DNA of 64,000 nucleotides from contig NZ_CP131914.1 of the NCBI RefSeq assembly GCF_040529045.1, forward strand, positions 3,022,501 through 3,086,500. The letters run 5' to 3'. Position numbers and translations under genes: made by a program. The first letter of the stretch is position 1. Each line of letters begins with the position of its first letter. Of this stretch, positions 39,783 through 61,548 are shown piece by piece. This DNA comes from Xanthomonas indica (GTDB lineage Bacteria > Pseudomonadota > Gammaproteobacteria > Xanthomonadales > Xanthomonadaceae). The notes under the pieces were generated by a model. It ran no database searches. It worked only from the letters and a program-made list of their open reading frames with translations, and was not told the origin of the DNA.

Positions 39783-39812
39783 GGGGGCAGGTATGGCAAC
39801 GGGCACCGGTAT

Positions 39813-39840
39813 GTGCCGGGGCGGCACGGAAAGGTTGCGC
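39813..39840 (-). promoter_or_regulatory. ECF-type promoter motif of the sigma operon
   Basis: Read on the minus strand: GCGCAACCTTT, 13 bases, GCACATA. It ends 31 bases before the sigma ATG. It shares GCGCAACCTTTCCG exactly with the fdtA promoter motif at 43334, and the GCAC-N-Y-A element at identical spacing with four other sites. Interpreted as -35 (AACC core) and -10 (GCAC) separated by 16 bases, normal ECF spacing. Confidence 0.75.
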
Positions 39841-39845
39841 TCGAC

Positions 39846-40601
39846 TCAGAAGCTGCGGGAGAGGCTGGCCACCCAAGGCCACAGGCCGCGGTCGGCATAG
39901 CCGGTGCGGGCGTTGCTGAACACGCGGTCCACCTCCAGGCTCCAGCGCCCGGCGTTCCAGATCAGCCCGGCGTGGCCGTAATGATAGTGCGCGGTGTACT
40001 CCAGTCCGTACAGGGCCGGCGGCGCCTGGCTGACGCCGGCCCCCACCGACAACGACAGCGGGCCGGCCAGCGGCTGGTGCGCGGTCAGGTCGAGCGCGCC
40101 GTACCAGCGCTGCTGCAGGCCGCTGTCGGGCATGCGGAAGGCGGCCAGCGACAGGCTCAGGCGGTCGCGGTAGCTCCAGCCCAGGCTGACCTCGTCGCGG
40201 TTGAACAGGCGGTTGGCGCGCGACCCAGGGTAGCGGTACAGCAGCGCCTCGGCCTGCAGTTGCCAGCTGTCGGACAGGGTCCAGCTGCGCGACAGGCCGA
40301 CGCTGCCCATCAGCACCTTGCCCGGCGCATCCAGCGCCACGCTGGCCGCGCCGCTCAGCGACCAGCCCGGCGCCGGCAGCCAGAACAGTGCGCCCTGCAG
40401 GGTCGGGGTGCTGCGGGTCACGGCGATGCCGCGGTCGACCAGTTGCGAGCTGATCCCGGCGGCGCCGCCGACATCGCCGGCCGTGGCGACCGGCGCGTGC
40501 AGCGCAGCGAGCGCCAGGGCCACCGCCAGTGCCGCGCCGGCGCTTGCGCGCCATGACCGCCGGCCCGCGCCGGCAGCCCCGCCGATGCGGGCGCTCAGCA
40601 T
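39846..40601 (-). CDS. Outer-membrane beta-barrel protein of unknown function
   Basis: 251 residues. The signal peptide (a basic start, then GAALAVALALAALHAPVATA, cleavage near 41) is followed by alternating amphipathic strands (SGAASVALDAPGKVLMGSVG, WQLQAEALLYRYPG, EVSLGWSYRDRLSLSLAAF, SLEVDRVFSNARTGY) and a C-terminal Phe (SLSRSF), the outer-membrane insertion signature. A GGAG lies 10 bases before the ATG. It is the last gene of the leftward b561/barrel/cytochrome c group and ends six bases before the sigma promoter motif. Substrate unknown. Confidence 0.8.
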   Translation of the reverse strand: MLSARIGGAAGAGRRSWRASAGAALAVALALAALHAPVATAGDVGGAAGISSQLVDRGIAVTRSTPTLQGALFWLPAPGWSLSGAASVALDAPGKVLMGSVGLSRSWTLSDSWQLQAEALLYRYPGSRANRLFNRDEVSLGWSYRDRLSLSLAAFRMPDSGLQQRWYGALDLTAHQPLAGPLSLSVGAGVSQAPPALYGLEYTAHYHYGHAGLIWNAGRWSLEVDRVFSNARTGYADRGLWPWVASLSRSF

Positions 40602-40772
40602 GCGCGGCCCGCTCCGCGGCGCAGGAAGGCGGCGGGAGGCAGGGGCGACGCGCCGAGGGCGGCAGGGGGCAAACGCACGGTGGCTCGAGGCTCGCAGGTC
40701 AGGAATCGGGGACGGGCGCGGCGCGATGGCCGGCCCGTCGGGCGCCGAATATGACCGGATCGGGCAGCCAGT

Positions 40773-41165
40773 TCAATGCAGGCTGTGCAGGTAGGCGATC
40801 AGGTCCTGCAACTGCTTGGCATCGTCCAGACCGTCGTACTTCATCTTGCCGCCGGGCAGGGCCTTGGACGCCGGCTGCGACAGGTAGCTGCGCAACTTGT
40901 CGTCGCTCCAGGTCCACTGGCTCTGCTTCATCGCGTCGGAATAGGCGTAGTCGGGCACGCTGCCGGCGCGGCGTCCGACCACGCCGAACAGGGTCGGGCC
41001 TTTCTTGTTCTTGGCCGGCGCGGCGCTGTGGCATTCGGCGCATTCGCTGGCGAACACGCCGGCGCCGGGCGCGCCGCCGGCGGCATGCGCGGACGGCGCC
41101 ACCGCGGCGGCCAGCAGCAGGCCGGCGAGCAGGGTGCACAGGGGGAAGGCAGTGGCGGGTTTCAT
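40773..41165 (-). CDS. Periplasmic class I cytochrome c
   Basis: 130 residues. Signal peptide (TLLAGLLLAAAVAPSAHAA), one haem-c site CAECH (42-46), GPTLFGVVGRRAG and a distal Met ligand at 108 in PGGKMKYDG: the pattern of small soluble cytochromes c (c2/c550 type). GGAG eight bases before the ATG. It lies between two beta-barrel genes on the same strand; together with cytochrome b561 and the haem-bearing barrel it may form an electron path from quinol to periplasm or beyond. Its maturation needs the ccm genes 4-8 kb away. Confidence 0.93.
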   Translation of the reverse strand: MKPATAFPLCTLLAGLLLAAAVAPSAHAAGGAPGAGVFASECAECHSAAPAKNKKGPTLFGVVGRRAGSVPDYAYSDAMKQSQWTWSDDKLRSYLSQPASKALPGGKMKYDGLDDAKQLQDLIAYLHSLH

Positions 41166-41188
41166 GGGGGAAGCTCCGTGTGGGGACA

Positions 41189-42553
41189 TCAGAAAGCGAG
41201 GCTCAGGCTCAGCGCGAACTGATTGAGATCGCGCGGGCGGGTGACCGGGGAGGCGCCGAACACGTTGCCGGTGCTGCCGTTGAACTTGCTGAAACGGAAC
41301 CAGGTCGCGGACAGGCGCAGGTTGGAGATCGACGAAACGCTGTCGTCCTTGCCGAACGGCGCCCACGAGGCGCTGATCAGGTTGCTGGTGGTGTCCGGCG
41401 CGCCGTACGGGCGGTAGCGGAACGGATCGTCCGAACCGGTGTTGATGAAGTGCGCCAACAGCAGGCTGTAGCTCTGCCTGTAGGTGTAGTTGAGGCTGAT
41501 CGACTGGTCGCGCACGCTGGCCCGGCGCGGGCCGGCCAGGGCCGGGTCGGTGGGGTCGATCAGCGTGCTGCCGTAGCGGCGGCGCTCGTAGATGTTGAGG
41601 TAGCCGAGCTTGAGGATGTGCTCGCGGGTACCCAGGAACTGATAGTTGAGGTCGTAGCCGAGATCGGTGAAGTCGTCGCGCGGGCCGGTGCTGCGCGGCA
41701 GCTGCCGGCGCGTGGTCAGCGCGACCACACCGGCGGAGAAGAACTGCCGCTTGAGGTCCTTCATGTAGCTCAGGCGCAGGTAGCCGGTGTCGCTGAGCTT
41801 GCCCGGATCGCCGCCGACGGCGTAGCCCAGATCGTCCTGGGCCGAGACCGGCAGGGCGGTGTAGGTGCCGAGTTCGCCGTACCAGTTGCGGTCGTACAGG
41901 CCGTAGACGCTGGTGCCGATCACCCGGTTGGACAGCGCCGACTGGTTGAGCAGCGTGGTCGAACTGGCATAGGCCGAGGCCGGGCCCAGGCCGGAGGCGT
42001 TGGGCAGCATGCCGATCGGATCCTGGCTGCCGGGATTGTTGTTGACGCTGACGCCGAGCAGGGTGTCCTTGCCGCCGAGCTGGAAGCTCTTGAGCACCGC
42101 GCGCAGGTCCACGTTGTCCAGGCGCGTGGTGTAGTCGTTCTTGCCGTTGTTGCTGGTGGCGACCTTGACGTAGCCGCCGACGTTGTCGGTGAGGCGCCCG
42201 GCCAGGTACAGGTCGGCCTCGCTGAAGCGGGTGCGGCTCTCGCCGCGCGCCGGCACGCTGCGGTTGGCGGTGAGCTGGGCGGAGGCCGGGATCTTGGTGC
42301 CGTTGCCGTCGCTGTCGGTATAGCCGCCGAGCTTGAAGCGCATGCCGTACGGGGTCAGCGCCGGGCCGTAGGCGCCGATGTGGCAGTCGGCGCAGGACGA
42401 GCCGGTCTGCCGTGCGAACGCCGGCACCGCCGCGGCGCGCGGGCTCAGCACCAGCAGCAGCGAGCCCAGCGCCGACCACAGCAGCGCCTGCTCGGCGCCG
42501 CGCGTCCTGTCGCTGCGGGAGTAGGTGGAGGGGGACGACGGGGCGCTGTGCAT
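41189..42553 (-). CDS. Beta-barrel outer-membrane protein with an N-terminal haem-c motif
   Basis: 454 residues. After a signal segment (LLWSALGSLLLVLSPRAAAV) comes one CxxCH site, CADCH at 54-58 (RQTGSSCADCHIGAYGPALT). The rest is a series of amphipathic beta strands (DNVGGYVKVATSNNGK, YLRLSYMKDLKRQFFSAGVV, QSISLNYTYRQSYSLLLAHF) ending in SLSLAF with terminal Phe. Thus it looks like a porin-sized barrel with a periplasmic covalent haem. AGGA eight bases before the ATG supports the start. Located between cytochrome b561 and cytochrome c, which suggests electron transfer to or across the outer membrane; that is inference. Confidence 0.82.
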   Translation of the reverse strand: MHSAPSSPSTYSRSDRTRGAEQALLWSALGSLLLVLSPRAAAVPAFARQTGSSCADCHIGAYGPALTPYGMRFKLGGYTDSDGNGTKIPASAQLTANRSVPARGESRTRFSEADLYLAGRLTDNVGGYVKVATSNNGKNDYTTRLDNVDLRAVLKSFQLGGKDTLLGVSVNNNPGSQDPIGMLPNASGLGPASAYASSTTLLNQSALSNRVIGTSVYGLYDRNWYGELGTYTALPVSAQDDLGYAVGGDPGKLSDTGYLRLSYMKDLKRQFFSAGVVALTTRRQLPRSTGPRDDFTDLGYDLNYQFLGTREHILKLGYLNIYERRRYGSTLIDPTDPALAGPRRASVRDQSISLNYTYRQSYSLLLAHFINTGSDDPFRYRPYGAPDTTSNLISASWAPFGKDDSVSSISNLRLSATWFRFSKFNGSTGNVFGASPVTRPRDLNQFALSLSLAF

Positions 42554-42614
42554 GCGGAGAGTCCTTTGGCGGGTGGGTGCGGCGACGGACGGAAGCGGGG
42601 AAGGGCGAATCGAC

Positions 42615-43202
42615 TCAGCGGCGGCGCAGGAACGGCAACATCCGTTGCAGCACGGCGTCGCGGCGCACGAGGTGGTGCCACAGCGCCGCGCCGATGTGCA
42701 GCAGGATCAGGGCCAGCAGCAACCAGGCCGCGTCCACGTGCCAGGCGCCCAAGGTGTCGGCGAGATCGGGATCGGGCGCGACCAGTTCCGGCAGGGTCGC
42801 GCCGAACAGATGCACCGGCTTGCCCATCGACTGGCTCAGCGCCCAGCCCAGCACTGGCAGGGTCAGCAGCAGTGCGTACATCACCACGTGGGTGGCGCCG
42901 GCCAGCAAGCGCAGCAGCGCCGAGCCGGCATCCGGGTCGTGGCGCTTGCCCAGGCGCATCCGCAGCGCGACGCGCAGGCAGAACAGGCCGAGCACGAACA
43001 GACCGAAGTGGCGGTGGCCTTCCAGCAGCCATTGCCGCCACATGCGGCCTTCGACTTCCTCGCGCAGCAGGATCAATCCCGCCGCCAGCACCAGGCACAG
43101 CACGGTGAGCCAGTGCAGCCAGACCATCGGCCGCGGCAACGCCGCCGACGCGGCAGCGGGGGGAACGGGCGGTGTCGGCGCGGCCGGCGTGGGCGAGGTC
43201 AT
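42615..43202 (-). CDS. Cytochrome b561 family membrane protein
   Basis: 195 residues with four helices. A Pro/Ala-rich N-terminus precedes MVWLHWLTVLCLVLAAGLIL. Haem-ligand His residues are seen in WLHWL, GHRHFGLFVLGLFCLRVALR, THVVMYALLLTLPVLGWAL and AWHVDAAWLLLALILLHIGA, the b561 pattern. Known role: quinol-linked electron transfer in the inner membrane, or superoxide oxidation in the CybB group. First gene of the leftward operon; promoter motif 43287-43313 lies 85 bases upstream. Divergent from the glycan cluster. Confidence 0.92.
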   Translation of the reverse strand: MTSPTPAAPTPPVPPAAASAALPRPMVWLHWLTVLCLVLAAGLILLREEVEGRMWRQWLLEGHRHFGLFVLGLFCLRVALRMRLGKRHDPDAGSALLRLLAGATHVVMYALLLTLPVLGWALSQSMGKPVHLFGATLPELVAPDPDLADTLGAWHVDAAWLLLALILLHIGAALWHHLVRRDAVLQRMLPFLRRR

Positions 43203-43286
43203 GGCGGTACGCGGTGTCCTTGGAGGCGACGAGGGGGCCCGCGGCGCGATGCGGCGCGGCATCGCGGCAGCGGTGGTCGTCGATGG

Positions 43287-43313
43287 GTGCTCGTGATGCG
43301 CCGAAAGGTTGCG
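43287..43313 (-). promoter_or_regulatory. ECF-type promoter motif of the cytochrome b561 operon
   Basis: Minus strand: CGCAACCTTT, 13 bases, GCACCCA. Its -35-like part forms an 11-bp perfect inverted repeat (GAAAGGTTGCG 43303-43313 with CGCAACCTTTC 43335-43345) with that of the divergent fdtA promoter. Same spacing as the sigma operon motif. Confidence 0.7.
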
Positions 43314-43333
43314 TCGCGCTGCGCGTCGCCATT

Positions 43334-43361
43334 GCGCAACCTTTCCGCGGACGCGCGGCAC
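43334..43361 (+). promoter_or_regulatory. ECF-type promoter motif of the glycan cluster
   Basis: Plus strand: GCGCAACCTTT, 13 bases, GCACTCA, ending 43 bases before the fdtA ATG. Back-to-back with the b561 promoter. It is the only promoter-like signal before the long run of overlapping glycan genes. Confidence 0.75.
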
Positions 43362-43404
43362 TCAGCCTGGACGCTCCGATGCGGAGCCCGGGTCGGGCAC
43401 TCTG

Positions 43405-43821
43405 ATGGCAATCGAACGAATCCAGTTGCGGACGCACGGCGACGCGCGCGGCCAGCTCGTGGCGCTGGAACAACAGCGCGACGTGCCTTTCGACATCCGC
43501 CGCGTGTACTACCTGTTCGCCACCCGCAACGGCGTGCACCGCGGCCAGCATGCGCACCGCCATCTCAACCAACTGGCGGTGGCGTTGCATGGGTCGGTGT
43601 CGTTCCTGCTCGACGACGGCAGCGGCCCGCTGCAGGTGGTGCTGGACGACCCGCGGCAAGGCCTGCTGCTGGGCAGCATGGTCTGGCGCGATCTGTACGA
43701 CTTCAGCGAGGACTGCGTGCTGATGGTGCTCGCCGACCAGGCCTACGACCCGACCGACTACATCTTCGACTACGACGAGTTCCTGCGCGAAGCCGCGGGC
43801 GTGCGCCGGCAGGAGGCCTAG
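43405..43821 (+). CDS. dTDP-6-deoxy-hexose 3,4-ketoisomerase, FdtA/QdtA/WxcM-like cupin
   Basis: 138 residues, the single-domain length of FdtA. The family isomerises dTDP-4-keto-6-deoxyglucose to the 3-keto sugar, the step before 3-amination to Fuc3N or Qui3N. Cupin motif HRGQHAHRHLNQLAVALHGS (His49 and His51 in the active site), an N-terminal DARGQLVALEQQRDVPFDIRR and C-terminal YDPTDYIFDYDEFL all fit. The ATG at 43405 lies 43 bases after the promoter motif; upstream codons in the same frame lie within the promoter. Precursor synthesis by RmlA and RmlB must be encoded elsewhere. The product (galacto or gluco epimer) cannot be told from sequence. Confidence 0.9.
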   Translation: MAIERIQLRTHGDARGQLVALEQQRDVPFDIRRVYYLFATRNGVHRGQHAHRHLNQLAVALHGSVSFLLDDGSGPLQVVLDDPRQGLLLGSMVWRDLYDFSEDCVLMVLADQAYDPTDYIFDYDEFLREAAGVRRQEA

Positions 43822-43824
43822 GCC

Positions 43825-44490
43825 ATGGCGCGTCCCCTGGTCATCGTCGGCGCCGGCGAACTGGCGCAGATCGCCTGCGAATACTTCACCCACGACAGCG
43901 ACTACGAGGTGCTGGCCTTCAGCGTGGAGCGCGACTACCTGTCCACGCCGACGATGGCCGGTCTCCCGGTGGTGGCCTATGAAGAGCTCGAGCAGCGCTA
44001 TCCGCCGTCGCAGGTGGACGTGTTCGTGGCGATCCCGGCCAGCGGCCTCAACCGGCTGCGCACGCGCTTCTACCTGGATGCCAAGCGTCGCGGCTACCGC
44101 ATGGCCAGCTACGTCAGCTCGCAGGCGTTCGTGTGGCGCAACGTGGAACTGGGCGAGCACTGCTTCGTGTTCGAGCATAACGTGCTGCAGCCGTTCACCC
44201 GCATCGGCGCCAACTGCATCCTGTGGAGCGGCAACCACGTCGGCCACCGCACGGTCCTCCACGATCACGTGTTCCTGGCCTCGCATGCGGTGATTTCGGG
44301 CTATTGCGAGATCGGCGCGAGCAGCTTCATCGGGGTCAATGCCACGCTCAGCGACCGGGTCAAGGTCGCCGCCGACAACGTGATCGGTGCCGGTGCGCTG
44401 CTGACTCGCGACACCGAGCCCGGACGCCTCTACGTCGGTGCGCCGGCGCGGGCAGTGGCCGGCAAGTCCAGCTTCGACGTGAACCTGTGA
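43825..44490 (+). CDS. NeuD/PglD-type left-handed beta-helix acyltransferase
   Basis: 221 residues. The N-terminal ~80 residues are a Rossmann-like PglD-N domain (LVIVGAGELAQIACEYF); the C-terminal part is a hexapeptide-repeat beta-helix (VELGEHCFVFEHNVLQPFTR, ILWSGNHVGHRTVLHDHVFL, VISGYCEIGASSFIGVNATL) with a catalytic-type His in NHVGH. The family acetylates amino sugars such as UDP-bacillosamine precursor or sialic acid. Here it most likely N-acylates the dTDP-3-amino sugar made by the cluster's aminotransferase. It starts three bases after fdtA. Confidence 0.87.
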   Translation: MARPLVIVGAGELAQIACEYFTHDSDYEVLAFSVERDYLSTPTMAGLPVVAYEELEQRYPPSQVDVFVAIPASGLNRLRTRFYLDAKRRGYRMASYVSSQAFVWRNVELGEHCFVFEHNVLQPFTRIGANCILWSGNHVGHRTVLHDHVFLASHAVISGYCEIGASSFIGVNATLSDRVKVAADNVIGAGALLTRDTEPGRLYVGAPARAVAGKSSFDVNL

Positions 44491-44495
44491 GACGC

Positions 44496-45455
44496 ATGTT
44501 CGCCTGGCACAAACGCGGCCTGGTGTTCGACACCGCACGCGACGGCGTCGGCGGCTGGATGCGGCATTCGGCGCTGACACCGACGCCGCTGCGGCTGGAT
44601 GCGCAGCGCCTGCGAATCTACGCCGGCTTCCGCGACGATGCCGGGATCAGCCGCATCGGCTATGTCGACGTGTGCGCCGACGATCCAACCCGGGTGCTCG
44701 GCGTCAGCGCCGCACCGGTGCTCGACATCGGCCGCGCCGGCTGTTTCGACGACAACGGCATGATCCTCGGCGATGTGGTGCACGGGCCGGACGGCCTGTC
44801 CATGTTCTATGTCGGCTTCCAGCAGGTGGCGCGGGCCAAGTTCCTGGCCTTTACCGGCCTGGCGGTGTCCACCGACGGCGGCGACACCTTCCAGCGTCGC
44901 CAGGACACGCCGCTGCTGGACCGCGCGCCCGGCCGCAGCACCATCGCCGCGGTACATTCGGCGCGTTATCGCGATGGCCGTTGGCAGCTGTGGTACGCGG
45001 TGGGCGACGACTGGGAATGGATCGGCGGCACGCCGTATCCGCGCTACCACATCCGCTGCGTTGAGACCGACGACCTGCAGGCGATTCCACGGCAGGACAC
45101 GGTCTGCCTGCAGCCGCAGGGCCAGGAGTACCGCATCGGCCGCCCGCGGGTGTACCGGCACGATGGCCGCCACCTGATGCTCTTCACCCACGGCAGCCAC
45201 GCCGGCGCCTATCTGCCGGGCATGGCGGTCAGCGACGACGGCTGCCACTGGCAGCGCTGCGACGCCGCACTGGGCCTGCCACTCTCGGCCGAGGGTTGGG
45301 ACGCGCGCACGCTGTGCTACCCGGCGCTGATCCGCCATGGCGGGCGCCTGCTGCTGTTCTACAACGGCAACGACATGGGCCGCGATGGCTTCGGCGTGGC
45401 CGAAGCGGTGCTGCCCGCCGGCATGGTCTGGGAGGACGCCGATGCTGTCGGTTAG
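44496..45455 (+). CDS. Beta-propeller glycosidase-related protein (GH43/GH130-like), role unknown
   Basis: 319 residues, no signal peptide. Repeated blades with SxDGxxF/W motifs: AVSTDGGDTFQRRQDTPLL, AVSDDGCHWQRCDAALGL, and LLLFYNGNDMGRDGFGVAEA near the C-terminus, reminiscent of the five-bladed propellers of GH43/GH130-type enzymes and their relatives in polysaccharide loci. Candidate acidic residues exist, but I cannot assign catalytic ones. Being cytoplasmic and inside a sugar-synthesis operon, it is more likely a sugar-processing or transferase-like enzyme than a degradative glycosidase. It overlaps the next gene by 14 bases. Confidence 0.75.
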   Translation: MFAWHKRGLVFDTARDGVGGWMRHSALTPTPLRLDAQRLRIYAGFRDDAGISRIGYVDVCADDPTRVLGVSAAPVLDIGRAGCFDDNGMILGDVVHGPDGLSMFYVGFQQVARAKFLAFTGLAVSTDGGDTFQRRQDTPLLDRAPGRSTIAAVHSARYRDGRWQLWYAVGDDWEWIGGTPYPRYHIRCVETDDLQAIPRQDTVCLQPQGQEYRIGRPRVYRHDGRHLMLFTHGSHAGAYLPGMAVSDDGCHWQRCDAALGLPLSAEGWDARTLCYPALIRHGGRLLLFYNGNDMGRDGFGVAEAVLPAGMVWEDADAVG

Positions 45456-46377
45456 GCCCTACACCGCGGCCGATGCGCCGACGTGGGATGCCGTGGTGGA
45501 GGCCTCGCGCAACGGCAATCTGCTGCACCGGCGCGGCTACATGGAGTATCACGCGCCGCGCTTCGTCGACGCCTCCTTGCTGGTCGAGGACGCCGGCACG
45601 CCGGTCGCGGTGTTCCCGGCCAACCGCGAGGGCGACGCGGTGACCAGCCACGCCGGCCTCAGCTATGCCGGCTTGGTCTCGACCCACGTGCTGCGCGCGA
45701 CGGCGACGCTGGAGGCGTTCGAGCGCATCGCGGCGCATTATCGCGGCGCCGGCGTGCGCACGCTGCTGTACAAGGCGGTGCCGCATCTGTTCCACCGCAG
45801 TCCGGCGGAAGAAGACCTGTACGCGCTGCACCGGCTGGGTGCGCGCCTGCACCGCCGCGACCTGTCCTCGGCGGTGCCGCTGCGCGCGCCGCCACGCTTC
45901 GCCGCCGCGCGCAAGCGGTCGGTGGCCAAGGCGCGCCGCGCCGGGCTGTGCGTGCAGCGCGTGGACGACCCGGCGCCGCTGCACGCGCTGCTGCGCGAGG
46001 TCCTGCAACGCCACGACGCGCGTCCGACCCACAGCCTGGAGGAACTGCGCCTGCTGTGCGCGCGCTTCCCGGCGCAGATCGTGCCCTACGAAGTCCGCGA
46101 CGGCGCGGAGCTGCTGGCCGGCACGCTGGTGTACGACTTCGGCAACGTCGTCCACACCCAGTACCTGGCCTGTTCGGAACAGGGCCGCCGTGCCGATGCG
46201 CTGAGCCTGCTGCTGGCCGAGCTGATCGAGCAGGTCTACGCGCAGCGCGAGTTCCTCAGCCTGGGCATTTCCACCGAGCAGCAGGGCCAGGTGCTCAATG
46301 CCGGCCTGGTCGAGCAGAAGGAGCGCTTCGGCGCGCGCGCCGTGGTCCACGATTTCTACCGTTGGGAGTTGCAATGA
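45442..46377 (+). CDS. GNAT/FemAB-fold acyltransferase of the glycan cluster
   Basis: 311 residues. N-terminal [20 protein letters not shown] and [20 protein letters not shown], then the C-terminal GNAT-like half with [20 protein letters not shown] and [20 protein letters not shown], consistent with FemAB-type double-GNAT proteins found in capsule and LPS loci. GGAGG seven bases upstream fixes the start inside the previous gene. Substrate unknown; acylation or aminoacylation of the amino sugar is plausible. Overlaps the aminotransferase start by 4 bases. Confidence 0.78.
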
Positions 46378-47504
46378 GCCTGCCGTCGGCCAGCGTGCCG
46401 TTCCTCGACCTGCGCGCCAGCAATGCGCGCTACGCCGACGAGCTGAAGGCCGCGGCGGCGCGGGTGATCGATTCCGGCTGGTACGTGCTGGGCGAGGAAC
46501 TGGACGCCTTCGAGCGCGAGTTCGCCGCCTACTGCGGCACCACCCACGCCATCGGCGTCGGCAACGGCATGGACGCGCTGACCCTGATCCTGCGCGGCTA
46601 CCGTGCGCTTGGCCGGTTGCACGAGGGCGACGAGGTGCTGGTGCCGGGCAATACCTTCATCGCCAGCTTCCTGGCGATCAGCGAGAGCCGGCTGCGGCCG
46701 GTGCCGCTGGAACCGGAGGCGGCCAGCTTCAATCTGGATCCGGCGCAGGTGGAGCGGGCGATCGGCCCGCGCACCAGGGCGATCCTGGCGGTGCACCTGT
46801 ACGGGCAGCTGGCCAACATGGCCGCGCTGCGCGCTATCGCCGAGCAGCATGGCCTGCTGCTGCTCGAGGACGCGGCGCAGGCGCATGGTGCGCGCCGCGA
46901 TGGCCGCCATGCCGGCAGCTTCGGCGATGCCGCCGGCTTCAGCTTCTTTCCCGGCAAGAACCTGGGCGCGCTCGGCGACGGCGGTGCAGTGACCACCGAC
47001 GACGACGCGCTCGCGGCGCAGATCCGGGTGCTGCGCAACTATGGATCGGACATCAAGTACCGGCATCTGCTGCAGGGCGTGAACTCGCGCCTGGACGAGC
47101 TGCAGGCGGCGTTGTTGCGGGTCAAGCTGCGGCATCTGGATGCCGACATCGCCGCGCGCCGTGCGATCGCCCAGCGCTACCTCGACGGCATCGCGCATCC
47201 GCAGATCGCGTTGCCGCAGGTGGCCGACCCGCCCGCGCATGCCTGGCACCTGTTCGTGGTGCGCTGTGCGCAGCGCGATGCGCTGCAGCAGCATTTGCAG
47301 GCTCACGGCGTGCAGTGCCTGGTGCATTACCCGACACCGCCGCACCGGCAGTCGGCCTATCCGGAACTGGCCGCGCTGCAGCTGCCGCTGTGCGAGCAGT
47401 TGGCGGCCGAAGTGCTCAGCCTGCCGATCGGTCCCACCCTGGACGATGCGGCGGTGGCGCAGGTGATCGACGCCTGCCAGCGTTTCGGCGGCGTGGCGGC
47501 ATGA
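46374..47504 (+). CDS. PLP-dependent sugar 3-aminotransferase (DegT/DnrJ/EryC1, FdtB-like)
   Basis: 376 residues. Fold type I aminotransferase converting the dTDP-3-keto-6-deoxy sugar from the ketoisomerase to the 3-amino sugar with glutamate. [20 protein letters not shown] at the N-terminus, [42 protein letters not shown], the PLP-lysine Lys195 in [14 protein letters not shown], and [20 protein letters not shown] all match the family. Presence with FdtA-like and NeuD-like genes makes a 3-acylamino-3,6-dideoxyhexose the likely product. Overlaps both neighbours by 4 bases. Confidence 0.92.
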
Positions 47505-51715: not shown

Positions 51716-51823
51716 CGGCAACCCGCCGATTCAACCAAACGGCGCGATCGACGCACCTACCTGCACTACCACGCGATGGGTTCGCGCGGAGTCCGACAAG
51801 GGCAGGGCAGTGGAGAGGTGCAG

Positions 51824-52672: not shown

Positions 52673-52674
52673 GC

Positions 52675-53907: not shown

Positions 53908-54599
53908 GCGCGGTCCCGACCCTCGATCCGCTGGCCGCCTACGCCCTGTGGGCGGACAGCTACCCGGCGCAGGCGCACAACCCAGTGATGCAGGCCGAAC
54001 AGCGCGCCATGCTGGCCTTGCTGCCGCCGTCGGTGCGCGGGCAGCACGTGCTCGATGCCGGCTGCGGCAGCGGCCGCTATCTGCTGCATGCGCTGCAGCG
54101 GGGCGCCGACCACGTCACCGGCGTGGACCTGTCGCCGCAGATGCTGGCGCGCGCCGCGCAGGAGCTGGCCGACGTCGATGGCGGCCGCTGCAGCTTGCGC
54201 GAGGGCAGCCTGGAGGCCTTGCCGCTGGCCGACGCCAGCGTCGACCTGAGTCTCTGCGCGCTGGCGCTCGGACACCTGCCGCAGCTGCCGCCGGCCCTGG
54301 CGGAACTGCGCCGCGTCACCCGGCCCGGTGGCTGGGTGCTGTGCAGCGACGTGCACCCGATCGGCCCGGCGCTGGGATGGCGCCGCGACTTCAAGGCCGG
54401 CGGCCAGCGCTACGCCGTGCGCCATACCCAGCATCTGTACAGCCACTGGCATGCCGCCTGCGCCGCGCTCGGGCTGGCCATCGACGCCGTCAGCGAACCG
54501 ATGCTCGACCCGGCGGACATTCCCGCCGGCGCCCATTTCGATCCCGCTGCATTGCAGGTGCCGGTGGCCCTGGTGCTGCGCCTGCGGCGCCTGCCGTGA
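53904..54599 (+). CDS. Class I SAM-dependent methyltransferase (UbiE/Methyltransf_11 type)
   Basis: 231 residues. Motif I VLDAGCGSGRYLLHALQRGA, motif post-I VTGVDLSPQMLARAAQEL, LPLADASVDLSLCALALGHL and VTRPGGWVLCSDVHP are characteristic. The second half (RYAVRHTQHLYSHWHAACAA) is typical of small-molecule O-, N- or C-methyltransferases. Overlaps the amidohydrolase stop. Second methyltransferase in three genes; target unknown. Confidence 0.88.
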   Translation: MSAVPTLDPLAAYALWADSYPAQAHNPVMQAEQRAMLALLPPSVRGQHVLDAGCGSGRYLLHALQRGADHVTGVDLSPQMLARAAQELADVDGGRCSLREGSLEALPLADASVDLSLCALALGHLPQLPPALAELRRVTRPGGWVLCSDVHPIGPALGWRRDFKAGGQRYAVRHTQHLYSHWHAACAALGLAIDAVSEPMLDPADIPAGAHFDPAALQVPVALVLRLRRLP

Positions 54600-54620
54600 C
54601 CCCTCCTGCGTTCGCCCGCC

Positions 54621-56132
54621 ATGTCCTCCACACCCAACACGCTGCTGGTCAATCCCACCATCACCAAGCCGTCCAGCGCCCGCTTCCCGCTGTCGCTGCT
54701 GAACCTGGCGGCGGCGCTGGATCACCACGGCGACAGCCGCATCATCGACGGCAACGTCGAGCGCGATTTCATCGACCGCAGCCTGCAGGCGCTGCAGGAG
54801 CAGCACTATGACGCTGTCGGCATCAGCGTGATGGGCGGGCCGCAGCTGGCGCCGTCGATCGCATTGTCGCAGGCCATCCGCGCACGCTTCCCGGCGCTGC
54901 CGATCGTCTGGGGCGGCTACTTCCCCACGCTGTACCCGGACACCGCGCTGGCCGCGCCGTACGTGGATTACGCGATCCGCGCGCAGGGCGAGGCCACCTT
55001 GCCGGAACTGCTGGCCGCCTTGCGCGGCGAGGGACCCACGCTGGCGCAGGTCGATGGGCTGTCCTGGAAGCAGGACGGCGCCGTGGTGCACAACCGCAAC
55101 CGCGCCTTCCAGCGCGGCGACGCGCTGCCGTCGCTGCCGTACGAGAAGCTCGGCGAGCCGCGCCGCTATCTCGGCCGCACCTTCCTCGGCCGCCGCACCG
55201 CCTCGCACCAGGCCGCGCTGGGCTGTCGCTTCCGCTGCACCTTCTGCGGGGTGGCGGCGATGTTCGGCGGCGCCACCGCCTTGCCGACCGCGGCACGCCT
55301 GGAACGCGAGCTTGGGTATCTGAAGTACGGCCTGGGCGCCGATTCGATCCAGTTCTTCGACCACAACTTCTTCGACCGCGAAGCCGACATGATCCCGCTG
55401 CTGGAGGTGATGGCGAAGCTGGAACTGCCGTGGTGGTGCTATGCCCGCGCGGACGCGCTGCTCAACCTGTCCGAGAGCACCTGGAAGCTGGTGCGCAAGA
55501 GCCGCCTGCGCATGGCCTACATCGGCGCCGAGTCGCCGAGCGGGGCGATGCTCAAGGAGATCCGCAAGGGCACGCGGCCGGACCAGACCCTGGCAGTGGC
55601 CGAGCTGTGCCGGCGCAACGGGGTGATCCCCGAACTGTCGTTCATGGTCGCGCCACCACAGGACAGCGAGCGCGAGACCGAACAGACCTTCGAGTTCATC
55701 CGCGAGCTGAAGCGGATCAACCCGCAGTCGGAAATCATCGTCTACGTGTACACCCCGCTGCCCGAGAGCAGCCGCCACGAGAAGGACCGCGGCCGCCGCG
55801 CGGGCATGCCCTTGCTCGATCGCGACGGCGTACCGGTGCAGTTCCCGCGTACGCCGGAGGAATGGGCGCAGCCGCAGTGGGTGGACTACGCCTGCCACGC
55901 CGATGCGCCCTGGCTCACCGATGCGCTGCGCCAGCGCATCCGCGATTTCGTCACCGTGCTCGGCTGCCGCTATCCCACCGCGCAGGATCAGCGCTCGCCG
56001 GGCTGGGCCAAGCGCGGGCTCAGCGCGCTGGCCGCCTGGCGCTACCGCTACCGGCGCTACGACCGGCCGTGGGAGCTGAACCTGGCCAACCGGCTGGTGC
56101 GCCTGCACCGGCCGCAGGTGTCCGGAATCTGA
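54621..56132 (+). CDS. B12-binding-domain radical SAM enzyme
   Basis: 503 residues. The N-terminal ~150 residues are a cobalamin-binding Rossmann domain (NTLLVNPTITKPSSARFPLS, AVGISVMGGPQLAPSIAL, VWGGYFPTLYPDTALAAP); the DxHxxG motif of base-off B12 proteins is not seen, as in many of this class. The radical SAM core has Cys202, Cys206 and Cys209 (GCRFRCTFCG) for the 4Fe-4S cluster, then SIQFFDHNFFD and RMAYIGAESPSG. The family includes methyltransferases at unreactive carbons and lipid/hopanoid modifying enzymes. Reaction here unknown. Follows the methyltransferase by 21 bases. Confidence 0.9.
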   Translation: MSSTPNTLLVNPTITKPSSARFPLSLLNLAAALDHHGDSRIIDGNVERDFIDRSLQALQEQHYDAVGISVMGGPQLAPSIALSQAIRARFPALPIVWGGYFPTLYPDTALAAPYVDYAIRAQGEATLPELLAALRGEGPTLAQVDGLSWKQDGAVVHNRNRAFQRGDALPSLPYEKLGEPRRYLGRTFLGRRTASHQAALGCRFRCTFCGVAAMFGGATALPTAARLERELGYLKYGLGADSIQFFDHNFFDREADMIPLLEVMAKLELPWWCYARADALLNLSESTWKLVRKSRLRMAYIGAESPSGAMLKEIRKGTRPDQTLAVAELCRRNGVIPELSFMVAPPQDSERETEQTFEFIRELKRINPQSEIIVYVYTPLPESSRHEKDRGRRAGMPLLDRDGVPVQFPRTPEEWAQPQWVDYACHADAPWLTDALRQRIRDFVTVLGCRYPTAQDQRSPGWAKRGLSALAAWRYRYRRYDRPWELNLANRLVRLHRPQVSGI

Positions 56133-56134
56133 GC

Positions 56135-57283
56135 ATGGCCGGCACCGTCGCCCGTACCGTGCATGCCGTGCAGCTCAACTTCGTGCCGCTGCCGGACGGG
56201 GTGACGCCGGACCAAGCATTCGCACGGTGGCCGTCGTTGGCCGATATCGCCGAGGCGGTGGCCAGCGCCGGCACCCGCGTGTCGGTGATCCAGAGCGCCG
56301 CGGTCGATGCGCAGTTGCGGCGCAACGGCGTCGACTATCACTTCCTGCGCCGTGCCGATGCCGGGCGCCGGCGCCACCAGCGGCGCATCGCCGCGTTGCT
56401 GGCCGAACTCGACGCCGACGTGGTGCACGTGCACGGCCTGCAGTTCGCGCGCGAGGCGGCGACGCTGGCGCGCTGGCAGCCGTCGCGGCCGATCCTGCTG
56501 CAGGACCACGCCAATCGCCCGCCACGCTGGTGGCGGCGACCGCAGTGGCGGCGCTGGTACGCGGCGGCGGCCGGCATCGCCTTCACTTCGCTGGACCTGG
56601 CGCGCGGCTTCGTCGGTGCCGGGTTGTTCGCCGGGTCCACGCGCCTGTTCGCCATTCCCGAATCCAGTTGTCGTTTCACTCCCGGCGAGCGCGACCAGGC
56701 ACGCCGCGACAGCGGACTGCACGGCGCGCCCTGCGTGCTGTGGGTCGGCCATCTGAGCGAGGGCAAGGATCCGCTCACCGTGCTCGAAGGGGTGGCCCGG
56801 GCCAGCGAGCAATTGCCCGGACTGCAGCTGTTCTGCGCGTTCGGCACTGCGCCACTGCTGCCGATGGTGCAGCAGCGCATCCGGGCCGATCCGCGCCTGG
56901 CCGGCCGCGTGCACCTGCTGGGCAGGGTGGAGCACGCGCAGATCCAGACCATGATGCGTGCGGCCGACCTGTTCGTATCCGCCAGCCTGGCCGAGAGCTG
57001 CGGCTACGCCGCGCTTGAAGCCTATGCCTGCGGCGCGGTGCCGGTGCTGACCGACATTCCGGCGTTCCGTGCGCTCAGCGATGGCGGCCGGGTCGGGGCG
57101 CTGTGGCCCTGCGGCGACACCGAACGCCTGGCAGCTGCACTACTGCGGTCATCACGCGACGGGCCATCGCGGGCGCTGGTGCGCGCGCATTTCGATGCGC
57201 AGTTGTCGTTCGCGGCGGTGGGGCGGCGCTGGGCACGGGCCTATGCGCAGCTGCTCGGCGCCGCGCCGCGGAGCGCGCCATGA
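56135..57283 (+). CDS. Family 4 glycosyltransferase (first of a pair)
   Basis: 382 residues, GT-B fold. The C-terminal donor domain shows CVLWVGHLSEGKDPLTVLEG, RVHLLGRVEHAQIQTMMRAA and the E-x7-E segment SLAESCGYAALEAYACG. The N-terminal half holds DADVVHVHGLQFAREAATLA. It starts two bases after the radical SAM stop and its stop overlaps the next GT4 gene by 4 bases. Retaining transferase by family; donor and acceptor unknown. Confidence 0.9.
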   Translation: MAGTVARTVHAVQLNFVPLPDGVTPDQAFARWPSLADIAEAVASAGTRVSVIQSAAVDAQLRRNGVDYHFLRRADAGRRRHQRRIAALLAELDADVVHVHGLQFAREAATLARWQPSRPILLQDHANRPPRWWRRPQWRRWYAAAAGIAFTSLDLARGFVGAGLFAGSTRLFAIPESSCRFTPGERDQARRDSGLHGAPCVLWVGHLSEGKDPLTVLEGVARASEQLPGLQLFCAFGTAPLLPMVQQRIRADPRLAGRVHLLGRVEHAQIQTMMRAADLFVSASLAESCGYAALEAYACGAVPVLTDIPAFRALSDGGRVGALWPCGDTERLAAALLRSSRDGPSRALVRAHFDAQLSFAAVGRRWARAYAQLLGAAPRSAP

Positions 57284-58416
57284 AGCTGGCCCTTGTGGTG
57301 CCGGGCGGCGTCGACCGCAGCGGCGAGTACCGGGTGATTCCGGCCTTCCTGAGCCTCATCGAGCGCCTGGCGCGCGTGCACGACCTGCACGTGTTCGTGC
57401 TGCACCAGGAACCGCTGCCGGCGCAGTGGGAGCTACTGGGCGCGCGCATCCACAACATCGGCGCGGCGCGCACGCGCTGGCGCGCGATCGCGGCGATCCG
57501 CGCCGAACACCGCCGCGCGCCGTTCGACGCGGTGCAGTCGCTGTTCTCCGGCCACTGCAGCCTGATCGCGGTGGCGGCGGCGCGCTGGCTGCGGCGCCCG
57601 AGCCTGGTGCACATCGCCGGCGGCGAACTGGTCGCACTGCCCGCGATCGGTTACGGCGGCCGGCGCAAATGGCCGGGACGGCTGCGCGAGGCGCTGGTGT
57701 TGCGGCTGGCGGACGCGGTCACCGCGGCCAGCGCGCCCATCCTCGACAGCCTGCAGGCGCTGGGCATCGCCGCCGAACGCGTGCCGCTGGGCGTGGACCT
57801 GCGCGCCTGGCCGCCACGCGCGCCGCGTCCGCGCGGCGACGGGCCGGCGCGGCTGCTGCACGTGGCAAGCCTCAACCCGGTCAAGGACCAGCCGACCCTG
57901 CTGCGCGCCCTCGCTGCGCTGGCCCGCGCCGGAGTCGACTTCCGCATCGATCTGGTCGGCGTGGACACGCTCGACGGTGCGATGCAGCGCCTGGCCGCCA
58001 CGCTGGGCCTGAGCGAGCGAGTGCGCTTCCTCGGCTTCAAGACCCAGCGCGACCTGCGGCCGCTGGTGGAGGCGGCGGATCTGCTGGTGCTGTCGTCGCA
58101 GCACGAAGCCGGGCCGCTGGTGCTGCTGGAAGCGGCGGTGGCCGGGGTGCCGACGGTGGGGACCTCGGTCGGTCATCTGCAGGAGTGGTCGCCATCGGCG
58201 GCGCTGGCGGTACCGGTCGGCGACTGGGCCGGGCTGGCCGATGCGCTGCGCCAGGTGCTCAGCGACGACGAACTGCGCCTGCGCCTGGCCTGGGCGGCGC
58301 AATGCCGGGCCGTGCGCGAGGATGCCGACTGCAGCGTGCGCGGCTTCACCGCGCTGTACCAGCGTGTGTGCGTACCGCGCAACGCCGATGGCCGACGCGC
58401 AGTGCGGAATGGTTGA
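57280..58416 (+). CDS. Family 4 glycosyltransferase (second of a pair)
   Basis: 378 residues, GT-B fold. LALVVPGGVDRSGEYRVIPA start, LVHIAGGELVALPAIGYGG, ARLLHVASLNPVKDQPTLLR, RVRFLGFKTQRDLRPLVEAA and the E-x7-E motif HEAGPLVLLEAAVAGVP. Only distantly like the preceding GT4. Last plus-strand gene of this block; followed by a palindromic repeat pair and then by convergent minus-strand genes. Confidence 0.9.
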   Translation: MKLALVVPGGVDRSGEYRVIPAFLSLIERLARVHDLHVFVLHQEPLPAQWELLGARIHNIGAARTRWRAIAAIRAEHRRAPFDAVQSLFSGHCSLIAVAAARWLRRPSLVHIAGGELVALPAIGYGGRRKWPGRLREALVLRLADAVTAASAPILDSLQALGIAAERVPLGVDLRAWPPRAPRPRGDGPARLLHVASLNPVKDQPTLLRALAALARAGVDFRIDLVGVDTLDGAMQRLAATLGLSERVRFLGFKTQRDLRPLVEAADLLVLSSQHEAGPLVLLEAAVAGVPTVGTSVGHLQEWSPSAALAVPVGDWAGLADALRQVLSDDELRLRLAWAAQCRAVREDADCSVRGFTALYQRVCVPRNADGRRAVRNG

Positions 58417-58478
58417 CGCGCAGCGCGGCGTCAGGACAACGCGCGTTCGCGACGAATCCGGTCGTATCGACTTGTCTT

Positions 58479-58543
58479 GTAGGAGCGGCTTCAGCCGCGA
58501 CAGCCATCAGCGGTGACGCGTGGCGCGGCTGCAGCCGCGCCTA
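58479..58543. repeat. Inverted pair of REP-like palindromes between convergent genes
   Basis: A copy of the window's intergenic repeat (58479-58501, GTAGGAGCGGCTTC then AGCCGCGAC) faces an inverted relative (58523-58543, CGCGGCTGCAGCCGCGCCTAC). The two together can fold into one long hairpin. They occupy the 165-base gap between convergent GT4 and nucleotidyltransferase genes, a position where such pairs often serve as transcript ends. Confidence 0.8.
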
Positions 58544-58581
58544 CAACGGCGGTTCACCGCGCTCCCTGGTGACAGCGAGCG

Positions 58582-59865
58582 TCAGTCCGACGACGGCGCA
58601 TAGCCTTGCAGCGCGGTCCGCACCGCGTACAGCGTGTCCATCCGCGGCACCGGGTGCAGCAGCCGCTGCAGCACGCGGCGGCGCTGCGGCAGGCGCACCC
58701 AGTCCTGGCCCTGCAACCACAGTTGGGTGCGGATCATCTCGGCACGTTCCTGCCGGCTTTCCGCCGAGGGCTGCAGGCGCTGACGCAGATAGTCCAGCAC
58801 TTCGCGGCCAGAGCGTGCCCATTCGATGCCCGGCAGTGACGGCAGCCACAGTTGCGAACACGACGCCGCGGTCAGGTCCAGCCCGCGTGCGCGCAGCCGC
58901 AGCAGCGGCGGACATTGCGCACGCAGTTGCTTCAGGACCGCCGGCGGAATCGCCGCGCGGTAATAGCGCAACATCAGCCGCAGCGGCGGCCACGCCCACC
59001 AGGCATCGGCTCCGGCCACGAGCTGCCAGTCGCTGGCACGCATGTGCGGGGCGAGCAGGGCCAGGTCGTGCAGGTGCATCAGCCGCAGGCTGCGGCTGCA
59101 CAGCCCGCCGGCCGCGTGCAGCAGCAGATGGCGCATCAGCGCGCCGTTGCTCGGGTAGGGACGCAAGCCGGGCTTGCCGTCGCGCGGCAGGAGTTGCGTG
59201 CCGAGGTCGACGGTGCGCAGCGGCAGGCGCTCCTGGATGCGCACATGCAGTTCGATGTTGATCGGCGTATCGCGGTGCTCGCCCAGCGCCGGCACGGCCT
59301 TCGCATCTGCCGGGCGGAAGGTCTGGTGCTTCCACTGCGCGAACTCGGCCACGTAGCCCAGTGCGCCGAGCAGCGTCGCTGCGCGCTCGGCGTCCTCCGG
59401 ACGCACCAGCAGGTCGATGTCGGCCATTGGCCGGTCGCCCGGCCGATACAGGCCTTGCGCATGCAGCGCCGCACCCTTCAGCGGCACGATCGCCAGGCCG
59501 GCGGTCTGCGCCAGGGCGTCGATCCGCTGCAGCAGTGCGGCGATGCGCTGGTAGCGCTGCGCCACGTGCTCGCGCTGTGCGTCGAGGAAGGCGCGCCACC
59601 GCCGGTCCGGCCACTGCGAGCGCCGGCTCAGCAACGGCGCCACGCCATGCGCCACCGCCGCCGCCGCGGCCAGTTGCCAGTGCAGGCCGTTCCAGGCCGG
59701 CATCGGCGCGCCGGGCCGCGCCAGTTCGCGCGCCAGGGTCTCGGTGGCCAGGCGCAGGCCGCGGCCGATGCGCCGCAACGGCAGTGACGCGGGCGCCGCC
59801 GCCGGTGCGGCTGTCGGCAGGTCGGCCGCCACGGCCGGATGCGATGGCGTCGCCACGTCGGTCAT
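58582..59865 (-). CDS. Uncharacterised nucleotidyltransferase (NTP_transf_5 family)
   Basis: 427 residues. The nucleotidyltransferase motif is GDRPMADIDLLV (143-154) with Asp149 and Asp151 as metal ligands, preceded by VPLKGAALHAQGLY; this LKG...DxDLLV pattern matches NTP_transf_5 (PF14907). NIELHVRIQERLPL provides the third acidic position (Glu in IELH). An Ala/Pro-rich tail of ~30 residues opens the protein. Members sit beside HprK-like kinases in lasso-peptide clusters and some exopolysaccharide/exosortase loci; reaction unknown. It overlaps the radical SAM gene upstream (ATGA). Products of the divergent HprK-like/ABC operon are likely partners. Confidence 0.87.
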   Translation of the reverse strand: MTDVATPSHPAVAADLPTAAPAAAPASLPLRRIGRGLRLATETLARELARPGAPMPAWNGLHWQLAAAAAVAHGVAPLLSRRSQWPDRRWRAFLDAQREHVAQRYQRIAALLQRIDALAQTAGLAIVPLKGAALHAQGLYRPGDRPMADIDLLVRPEDAERAATLLGALGYVAEFAQWKHQTFRPADAKAVPALGEHRDTPINIELHVRIQERLPLRTVDLGTQLLPRDGKPGLRPYPSNGALMRHLLLHAAGGLCSRSLRLMHLHDLALLAPHMRASDWQLVAGADAWWAWPPLRLMLRYYRAAIPPAVLKQLRAQCPPLLRLRARGLDLTAASCSQLWLPSLPGIEWARSGREVLDYLRQRLQPSAESRQERAEMIRTQLWLQGQDWVRLPQRRRVLQRLLHPVPRMDTLYAVRTALQGYAPSSD

Positions 59866-61364
59866 GCGCGTTGCACCAGCGGAATCCGGCGGCGGCCGCC
59901 AGCGCCGAGCACTTTTTCCGCCTGCGCGGGCGGCGCCTCGGTCCGATGCTGCGCCTCCCGCGCGATCAGCGCCGCCCAGTCGGCGTCCAGCACTGTCCAG
60001 TCCTGCGCGTGCGCCGGGGCCGCGTCTTCGCGGCATTGCAGGTCCACCTGCCGGTGCAGCAGGTCGCGCACCTGGCGGTAGAACGCCGAGTCGTAGGCGC
60101 CGCGAAACATCATCGCCAGGTCGTCGCTGTCCTGCCAATGCGTCTTGCGCCCGAGCTGATCCTTGACCTGCTGGTAGAACACGGTGCCGGGCAGCGGATA
60201 GGACACGCTGACGCCGATGTCGTCCGGGCGCGCCTGCGCCACCAGCCGGCGCGTGGCGAGGATGTCCTCCAGCTGTTCGTCCAGGTAGCCCAGCTGCAGG
60301 AAGAAGCCGACGCGAATCCCTTGCGCCCCCAAGCGCTGGCGTGCGGCGATCACACCCTCCACGTCGGTGCCCTTGGTCATCTTGTCGAGGATGCGCTGGC
60401 TGCCGCTCTCGGCGCCGATCCAGGCCTCGCGGCAACCGGCCCGCGCCAGGGCCGCTGTCATGCGCTCGCTGCACAGGTCGGCGCGGGTCTGGATGGTGAA
60501 GGGCACCGCGCCATCGGCGGCGGCCAGCGCGTCGGCGAACTCCTCCACCCAGTCGACGTGGAAGCCGAAGATGTCGTCGGCCATCCACACATGATCGGGC
60601 GCGACGTTGCGCTTGAGTTGGGTCATCTCCGCGGCCACGTCCTGCGCCTCGCGGCGCTTGTAGTGATTGCCCCAGATCGGCTTGGCGCACCAGTTGCAGC
60701 GGAACGGGCAGCCGCGCGAGGCGGCCATGTTCAGGCTGAAATGGCCGTGCCGCTGCTGCCAGAACGCACGGTAACGTGCGATGTCCAGCAAGTCCCAGGC
60801 CGCCGTCACCGACAGCCGCGGATCCGGCGGCCGCGCGCCGATCTGCGCGCGCTTGAGCTGCGGCAGCACCGCGCTGGCCACCTCGGCCAGGCCAGCCACC
60901 CAGCGCGCCGGGTCGATGTCCGGCTCCGCCTGCAGGCGCGCCACCAGTTCCAGCAAGGCCGCGATGCCTTCGCCGATCAGCACCGCGTCGGCACCGGCGG
61001 CAAGGAATGCCTCCGGATGGTCCGATGCGTCGGAGCCGGCGACGATCACGCGGCTACCGCCGGCGCGCGCCTCGGCGATCATCCGGCACGCGGCCTCGCG
61101 CATCCGGCTCAGGCACATCTTGGTGAGAAAGTTGAAGTTGTCCTCGTAGACCACCACCAGGTCCGGCTGCTGTGTGCGCACGGCGTCGTTGTAGTCCTCC
61201 ACGCCCTCGGCCAGCATCGCGTCGAACAGCGTCACGTGGTGCCCGTGCTGGCGCAGCAGCGCCGCCACCTGCAGCGTGGCCAGCGGCGGGTACGGTTTTC
61301 CGCGTTCCCATTGCTTGGAGTCGTAGCGCAGGAAGTAGGAGTGGCTGACCTGGATCTTGAGCAT
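59862..61364 (-). CDS. Second B12-binding-domain radical SAM enzyme
   Basis: 500 residues. A cobalamin-binding-like N-terminal domain (QVSHSYFLRYDSKQWERGKP, HHVTLFDAMLAEGVEDYND, VIVAGSDASDHPEAFLAAGA, AVLIGEGIAALLELV) precedes a radical SAM core with Cys219, Cys223 and Cys226 (GCPFRCNWCAKPIWG). HVWMADDIFGFHVDWVEEF and EAWIGAESGSQRILDKM are the conserved later strands. It differs clearly from the plus-strand B12 radical SAM enzyme. Expressed with the nucleotidyltransferase from the ECF-type motif at 61442-61469. Substrate unknown. Confidence 0.9.
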   Translation of the reverse strand: MLKIQVSHSYFLRYDSKQWERGKPYPPLATLQVAALLRQHGHHVTLFDAMLAEGVEDYNDAVRTQQPDLVVVYEDNFNFLTKMCLSRMREAACRMIAEARAGGSRVIVAGSDASDHPEAFLAAGADAVLIGEGIAALLELVARLQAEPDIDPARWVAGLAEVASAVLPQLKRAQIGARPPDPRLSVTAAWDLLDIARYRAFWQQRHGHFSLNMAASRGCPFRCNWCAKPIWGNHYKRREAQDVAAEMTQLKRNVAPDHVWMADDIFGFHVDWVEEFADALAAADGAVPFTIQTRADLCSERMTAALARAGCREAWIGAESGSQRILDKMTKGTDVEGVIAARQRLGAQGIRVGFFLQLGYLDEQLEDILATRRLVAQARPDDIGVSVSYPLPGTVFYQQVKDQLGRKTHWQDSDDLAMMFRGAYDSAFYRQVRDLLHRQVDLQCREDAAPAHAQDWTVLDADWAALIAREAQHRTEAPPAQAEKVLGAGGRRRIPLVQRA

Positions 61365-61441
61365 CGGCGGAAGGTCTCGTTCGGCGCCGCGGGGGAAGGG
61401 CGCATGCAGCGATGGCCGCGCGCAGGTGGCCGTGGCGGTAG

Positions 61442-61469
61442 GTGCCGGGGCTGCGCCGTTTGGTTGCGC
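61442..61469 (-). promoter_or_regulatory. ECF-type promoter motif of the radical SAM/nucleotidyltransferase operon
   Basis: Minus strand: GCGCAACCAAA, 13 bases, GCACCTA, ending 77 bases before the radical SAM ATG. AAA replaces TTT after AACC, but spacing and the GCAC-N-Y-A part are as in the other four sites. GGTTGCGC (61462-61469) is inverted against GCGCAACC (61488-61495) of the divergent promoter. Confidence 0.62.
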
Positions 61470-61487
61470 GCCGCGTGGTTGCCGCCG

Positions 61488-61515
61488 GCGCAACCTTTGG
61501 CTGCGGCAGGCGCAC
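61488..61515 (+). promoter_or_regulatory. ECF-type promoter motif of the HprK-like/ABC operon
   Basis: Plus strand: GCGCAACCTTT, 13 bases, GCACCCA, ending 33 bases before the HprK-like ATG. Back-to-back with the radical SAM promoter, repeating the architecture of the b561/fdtA divergent region. Confidence 0.7.
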
Positions 61516-61548
61516 CCACGCTGCATCCCCTCAAGCGACTCTTCTCAG

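Follow-up and report, generated by a model that had tools for sequence, protein, structure and literature searches.

Which regulator might join genes for a surface sugar polymer and genes for outer-membrane electron carriers into one programme? The question is raised by a stretch of 64,000 nucleotides from Xanthomonas indica (assembly GCF_040529045.1, contig NZ_CP131914.1, positions 3,022,501 to 3,086,500; the window), in which copies of one bipartite motif, CAACCWWW-N13-GCACNYA, stand before units of both kinds and before the gene of an extracytoplasmic function (ECF) sigma factor. We regard it as very likely, from the sequence comparisons described here, that the six copies are promoters of this sigma factor (39201-39782), that it is autoregulated and that its regulon comprises six units, all within one island. 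Very probably, a single sigma factor switches on the sugar-polymer genes and the outer-membrane electron-carrier set as one unit.

Six sites in one island

The sequence-only reading, an earlier inspection of the window, had placed the motif before five transcription units, with a constant gap of 13 bases and an A as the third base after GCAC. All five sites were found at the places and on the strands given (Table 1; the b561 copy reads ACGCAACC), and the gap and the A are present in 6/6 sites, both being demanded by the pattern. The count had to be raised, since a sixth site (site 4, which begins TCAACC, not GCAACC) had been missed. Each site is oriented toward the gene downstream, and the motif lies 16-81 bases from the likely start codon (distances judged by eye, the start of the first methyltransferase gene, MTase1, being uncertain). 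ECF promoters typically have AAC in the -35 element and a spacer of about 16 bases; in the present motif GCAACC would serve as -35 element and GCACNYA as -10 element, 16 bases apart. The units so controlled would be sigma/anti-sigma/subtilase, cytochrome b561 with a Cyc2-like cytochrome-porin and cytochrome c, and four glycan units.

The exact pattern has six matches in the window (mean 0.00 in 100 dinucleotide shuffles) and six in the whole genome of 4,807,150 bases, all within one 21.7-kb island (39810-61518), and the reversed pattern, used as a control, has none. Random hits at the frequency of shuffled sequence, which the sequence-only reading had named as speaking against it, were thus not seen. 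In relatives the form can be loosened to CAACC[AT][AT][TCA]-N13-G[CT]AC-N-[CTG]-A. A relaxed scan of the genome with one mismatch allowed returned 23 matches, of which 6 belong to the island and 17 lie outside it, compared to 16 for the reversed control; because of this near-equality we claim no further members of the regulon.

Inheritance with the sigma gene

In the genus, 20 genomes including that of the window were scanned, and the pattern was found in 17 (exactly six sites in 14, five in G009 and G012, two in G001); 2 of the 96 exact sites lie away from the island, both in G012. Sites 4, 5 and 6 have counterparts at matching places in genus genomes (the AAA after CAACC is conserved at sites 4 and 5, TTT at the others). 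Three genomes (G015, G016, G019) miss the sites, the sigma gene, radical SAM 2 and the Cyc2-like porin all together, and G001 misses radical SAM 2 and keeps sigma gene and porin. The G012 locus (L122, 7820-13791) is rearranged: its stretch shows none of the genes from FdtA to GT2, and the MTase1 site adjoins the b561 unit.

At the family level, any match was found in 46 of 297 genomes and a sigma orthologue (E <= 1e-80, at least 67% identity) in 35. At least two sites were present in 33 of the 35 genomes with the orthologue vs none of the 262 without it (Fisher p 8e-42, which is not an independent test as the genomes are related), so that, as the sequence-only reading had anticipated, the sites are conserved in relatives, being inherited together with the sigma gene. 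A chance or compositional repeat would account for the single matches in 13 of the 262 genomes (about one per 20 genomes) and for the reversed pattern, which occurs in 23 of the 297 and twice in G225 and G260, but none of the 262 has two sites, and the genome of the window has six within 21.7 kb. We give such an origin practically no credence; it was ruled out by the shuffles, the genome-wide count, the family scan and the shuffled upstream regions (see below).

The two genomes with the orthologue that do not reach two sites can be accounted for in part. In G270 (locus L116, 6415-13211) sigma, anti-sigma and subtilase are retained with a GCACTGA variant of the site, b561 and most glycan genes were not found in the stretch, the Cyc2-like porin is broken up and a single glycan gene is left in fragments; judging from its sequence, the locus is a decaying copy of the regulon. 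In G181 the sigma gene lies on a 5.8-kb contig with a single one-mismatch site.

Another ECF sigma factor of the genome could in principle read these promoters, and the 12 candidate stretches in G000 (one at E <= 1e-30) suggest that further sigma factors probably exist. However, the motif was not found in the ten family genomes whose only ECF relatives are more distant (39-46% identity; E 2e-42 to 1e-31, counted above as without the orthologue), and it stands before the ECF sigma factor's own gene, so that we consider this explanation highly improbable.

To compare positions and spacing, 80 loci were taken, the best 80 of 139 sigma relatives (33 from Xanthomonas and 47 others, from Dyella, Luteibacter, Rhodanobacter, Burkholderiales and more; several stop at contig ends). 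With the gap of the strict pattern varied, 146 matches in 66 loci were obtained at 13 bases, 3 at 14 and 1 at 15, and gaps of 6-12 or 16-21 bases gave no match. A site with at most one mismatch from the relaxed core lies within 400 bases upstream of the sigma gene in 76/80 loci vs 3 of 2000 shuffled regions. With the spacing left free, CAACC and G[CT]AC are 16 bases apart in 71/80 loci (every other length between 8 and 25 occurs in at most 4 loci), including 39 of the 47 outside Xanthomonas. In Xanthomonas upstream regions aligned by start codon (31 of 33; L038 and L051 were omitted, their site being shifted by one base), variation is seen in the spacer but not in CAACCTTT, CAC or the final A. 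The ECF promoter logic with autoregulation that the sequence-only reading had proposed is supported by this recurrence at essentially one spacing.

The 80 loci hold 193 relaxed sites, and the next gene on the same strand is sigma for 66, b561 for 57, FdtA for 57, MTase1 for 7 (MTase1 was detected in just 11/80 loci) and the porin for 1, 188 in all; the remaining 5 are followed by other genes or, in the case of an X. albilineans locus, by no recognised island gene (only same-strand genes were assigned, and in 25 of the FdtA assignments the tblastn alignment was allowed to overlap the site). Odd sites were seen upstream of a methyltransferase gene in L072 and of an acyltransferase gene in L124. 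These counts also bear on a rival reading, in which an ordinary transcription factor, encoded within the island or close to it, would bind the motif as its operator. A conserved bipartite element could be an operator, the promoter assignment resting on sequence, but the motif is not palindromic, its -35 half has the AAC of ECF promoters, an island gene follows on the same strand in nearly all cases at essentially one spacing, and the motif tracks the sigma gene across families. We therefore consider an operator very unlikely, and ECF promoters read by the sigma factor of the island remain the preferred explanation.

Electron-carrier and glycan units

Coordinates of the sites and of the units that follow them are collected in Table 1.

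Table 1. Predicted promoter sites and genes of the island (window positions; nt, nucleotides; aa, amino acids).
Feature	Position	Strand	Remarks
Promoter site 1	39810..39837	-	ECF sigma gene (putative autoregulation); CAACCTTT-N13-GCACATA; 27 nt before ATG 39782
Promoter site 2	43284..43311	-	b561/Cyc2-like porin/cytochrome c unit; 81 nt before likely ATG 43202
Promoter site 3	43337..43364	+	FdtA and glycan cluster; 40 nt before likely ATG 43405
Promoter site 4	51732..51759	+	Methyltransferase/amidohydrolase/methyltransferase/radical SAM/glycosyltransferase unit; start uncertain (ATG 51776 or later)
Promoter site 5	61439..61466	-	Radical SAM 2/NTP_transf_5 unit; 74 nt before likely ATG 61364
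Promoter site 6	61491..61518	+	HprK-like kinase/ABC transporter unit; 30 nt before likely ATG 61549
S8 subtilase with N-terminal propeptide	37244..38563	-	Pfam Peptidase_S8; structure model; lipobox-like LGAC by eye
Anti-sigma factor	38560..39201	-	HxxxCxxC zinc-finger-like motif; putative membrane helix (96-124); propeptide-like domain at about 140-213, in the periplasm
ECF sigma factor, regions 2 and 4 only	39201..39782	-	Pfam Sigma70_r2, r4, r4_2
Small putative outer-membrane barrel, TorF-like	39846..40601	-	NCBIfam TIGR02001 30.9 bits, under cut-off 47.15
Cytochrome c	40773..41222	-	Pfam Cytochrom_C
Cyc2-like fused monoheme cytochrome-porin	41189..42553	-	AVPAFARQT-GSS-CADCH-IGAYG-PAL signature; 454 aa
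Cytochrome b561	42615..43202	-	Pfam Ni_hydr_CYTB
Glycan unit	43405..51715	+	FdtA, hexapeptide transferase, very weakly glycoside-phosphorylase-like protein, GNAT, DegT, flippase, GT2, Wzz-like
MTase1 unit	51776..58416	+	Methyltransferase, amidohydrolase, methyltransferase, B12 radical SAM 1, GT1
Radical SAM 2 unit	58582..61364	-	B12 radical SAM 2, NTP_transf_5 nucleotidyltransferase
HprK-like kinase	61549..62610	+	Under curated cut-offs; then ABC transporter extending beyond window end

That the island and the envelope redox genes form one sigma regulon, as the sequence-only reading had put it, is supported by the sequences, and the redox set can be specified further: the porin beside b561 is apparently a Cyc2-like outer-membrane electron conduit. 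In PMC8406198, Cyc2 is defined by AXPXFAR[Q/K][T/Y] ahead of CXXCH, PXL after it and a minimum length of 365. The window porin fits the motif, has CADCH and PAL and exceeds that length, and its neighbours are b561 and cytochrome c and, in Xanthomonas, the ccm genes. It departs from the Cyc2 of that paper in gaps that are off by one or two residues (3 residues between motif and CXXCH, where the motif is placed 5 amino acids upstream; PAL after 5, where PXL is placed 4 downstream) and in an ECF-type promoter shared with glycan genes. According to the same paper, several Xanthomonas sequences were dropped from the published Cyc2 set as over-sampled, and distant homologues may have other functions. 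Among the 63 loci with a relative of the porin, CXXCH is retained in 62, and the AXPXFAR motif is strict in 33, has Y for F in 27 and A for P in 2, and is unreadable in 1. A search of Pfam, even at E 10, gave no match for the porin or for the small barrel, and a sequence search of the PDB gave none for the porin.

The glycan unit combines FdtA, DegT and a hexapeptide transferase, presumably for a 3-acetamido-3,6-dideoxyhexose (the hexapeptide gene is not in the stretch for 8 of the 33 Xanthomonas loci). The sequence-only reading had described a unit of sigma, anti-sigma, protease and possibly ccm. The first three stand, and the ccm genes (Pfam CcmF_C, CcmE, Cytochrom_C_asm) follow the protease in 32/33 Xanthomonas loci (L044 ends before them) and in 0/47 others, so that they do not belong to the conserved sigma unit.

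In the eight Burkholderiales loci (L107-L114) the glycan genes were not found, except for one radical SAM match of 25% in L112. The occurrence of redox-type targets without glycan genes suggests that the envelope-redox targets may predate the rest of the regulon, as far as these few loci go. In L107, sites lie before a weakly cytochrome-like lipoprotein with a CXXCH-bearing protein and before a membrane protein; a strict site (L107:12582-13265) follows the subtilase and precedes a small membrane protein with a weak resemblance to DUF6644/DUF2214 (under the cut-offs). On an Ideonella contig (L111:2749-4803), a one-mismatch site is located between the subtilase and a redoxin/DUF4266/DUF3570 run.

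The anti-sigma factor and its subtilase

The nearest solved chains of the sigma factor are of the sigma-E type, and a cognate zinc-finger anti-sigma factor is encoded beside it, as in ECF sigma regulons. Its family match is weak (NCBIfam anti-sigma, 36 bits vs a cut-off of 100). Anti-sigma sequences were selected by HxxxCxxC (76/80 loci), and 34 were aligned with that of the window, the motif being invariant by selection; the structure model has a single long helix (96-124), taken as the membrane helix. Subtilases were likewise selected by G[TS]SMA around the serine and by an N-terminal motif (63/80 loci), and 27 were aligned with that of the window; D197, H230 and S380 are present in 28/28, the residues used for the selection being invariant because of it.

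The periplasmic domain of the anti-sigma factor may be related to the propeptide of the adjoining subtilase, which it resembles in sequence profile. With hhalign the two matched at a probability of 88; of the 47 controls, the 40 column shuffles reached no more than 4.3 and the 7 other segment pairs no more than 0.33. The model has the beta-alpha-beta-beta-alpha-beta fold of subtilase propeptides, and structure realignment put subtilase prodomains at the top. Several points weigh against the resemblance: the hhalign probability falls to 33-67 with the lineages split, an unrelated chain ties with the prodomains in the realignment, and the Foldseek E lies above 0.001 and is not significant. Subtilase propeptides and inhibitors (the prodomain of PC1/3, the prosegment of BPN', POIA1) share the order of strands and helices and appear in the top realignment rows; unlike them, the domain here ends a membrane anti-sigma factor and does not lie ahead of a protease.

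The propeptide-like domain suggests control through the neighbouring subtilase. The zinc-finger anti-sigma factor would keep sigma at the membrane, its periplasmic domain probably docks on the S8 subtilase, and the latter may be the site-1 protease or a signal-gated partner that releases sigma. A more specific scheme is possible, and we put it forward tentatively, as more doubtful than probable: the anti-sigma factor would be a tethered mimic of its partner's propeptide, bound in the same way, an envelope redox or glycan signal would decide whether it is held or cut, and cutting would free the sigma factor that builds a Cyc2-type conduit and a surface glycan. If so, the output of surface polymer would be gated by outer-membrane electron flow, and a look-alike of a dedicated subtilase's propeptide would be a mode of envelope sensing.

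The promoter logic alone is that of known ECF systems. As in the sigma-E/RseA and SigW/RsiW regulons, an ECF sigma factor has an adjoining zinc-finger-like membrane anti-sigma factor and a site before its own gene, the -35 element has AAC with a 16-base spacer, and release is likely proteolytic. Unlike them, the -10 element is GCACNYA, the regulon is limited to a single island, with genes for glycans and for electron transfer at the outer membrane, and a subtilase is encoded with the anti-sigma factor, its propeptide resembling the outer domain of the latter. Regulon content and propeptide-like anti-sigma factor make the system a variant of these. Our searches of the open-licence PMC literature gave no paper on this regulon or its sensor. 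The available parts of PMC3817407, PMC8103513, PMC8999054, PMC7406223, PMC10880074, PMC6883643 and PMC12655853 give no motif letters and no subtilase-linked group; the first reports motifs for 29 ECF groups, and the present motif may already be among them. Another Xanthomonas ECF sigma factor in the literature is ECF22, which was taken from X. campestris to build a synthetic switch (PMC10880074; PMC6883643 also has an ECF22 switch); it could be the present orthologue or a different one. What is added here is a predicted regulon with sharp limits, belonging to an ECF sigma factor conserved in Xanthomonas and relatives, and through it a likely link between a Cyc2-like cytochrome-porin, of a family used as a marker of iron oxidation, and glycan synthesis in plant-associated and soil bacteria.

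The C-terminal end of a subtilase propeptide sits in the active site of the protease. After its propeptide-like domain the anti-sigma factor has a C-terminal proline that is invariant in 35 sequences (the last residue in 33 and the last but one in 2).

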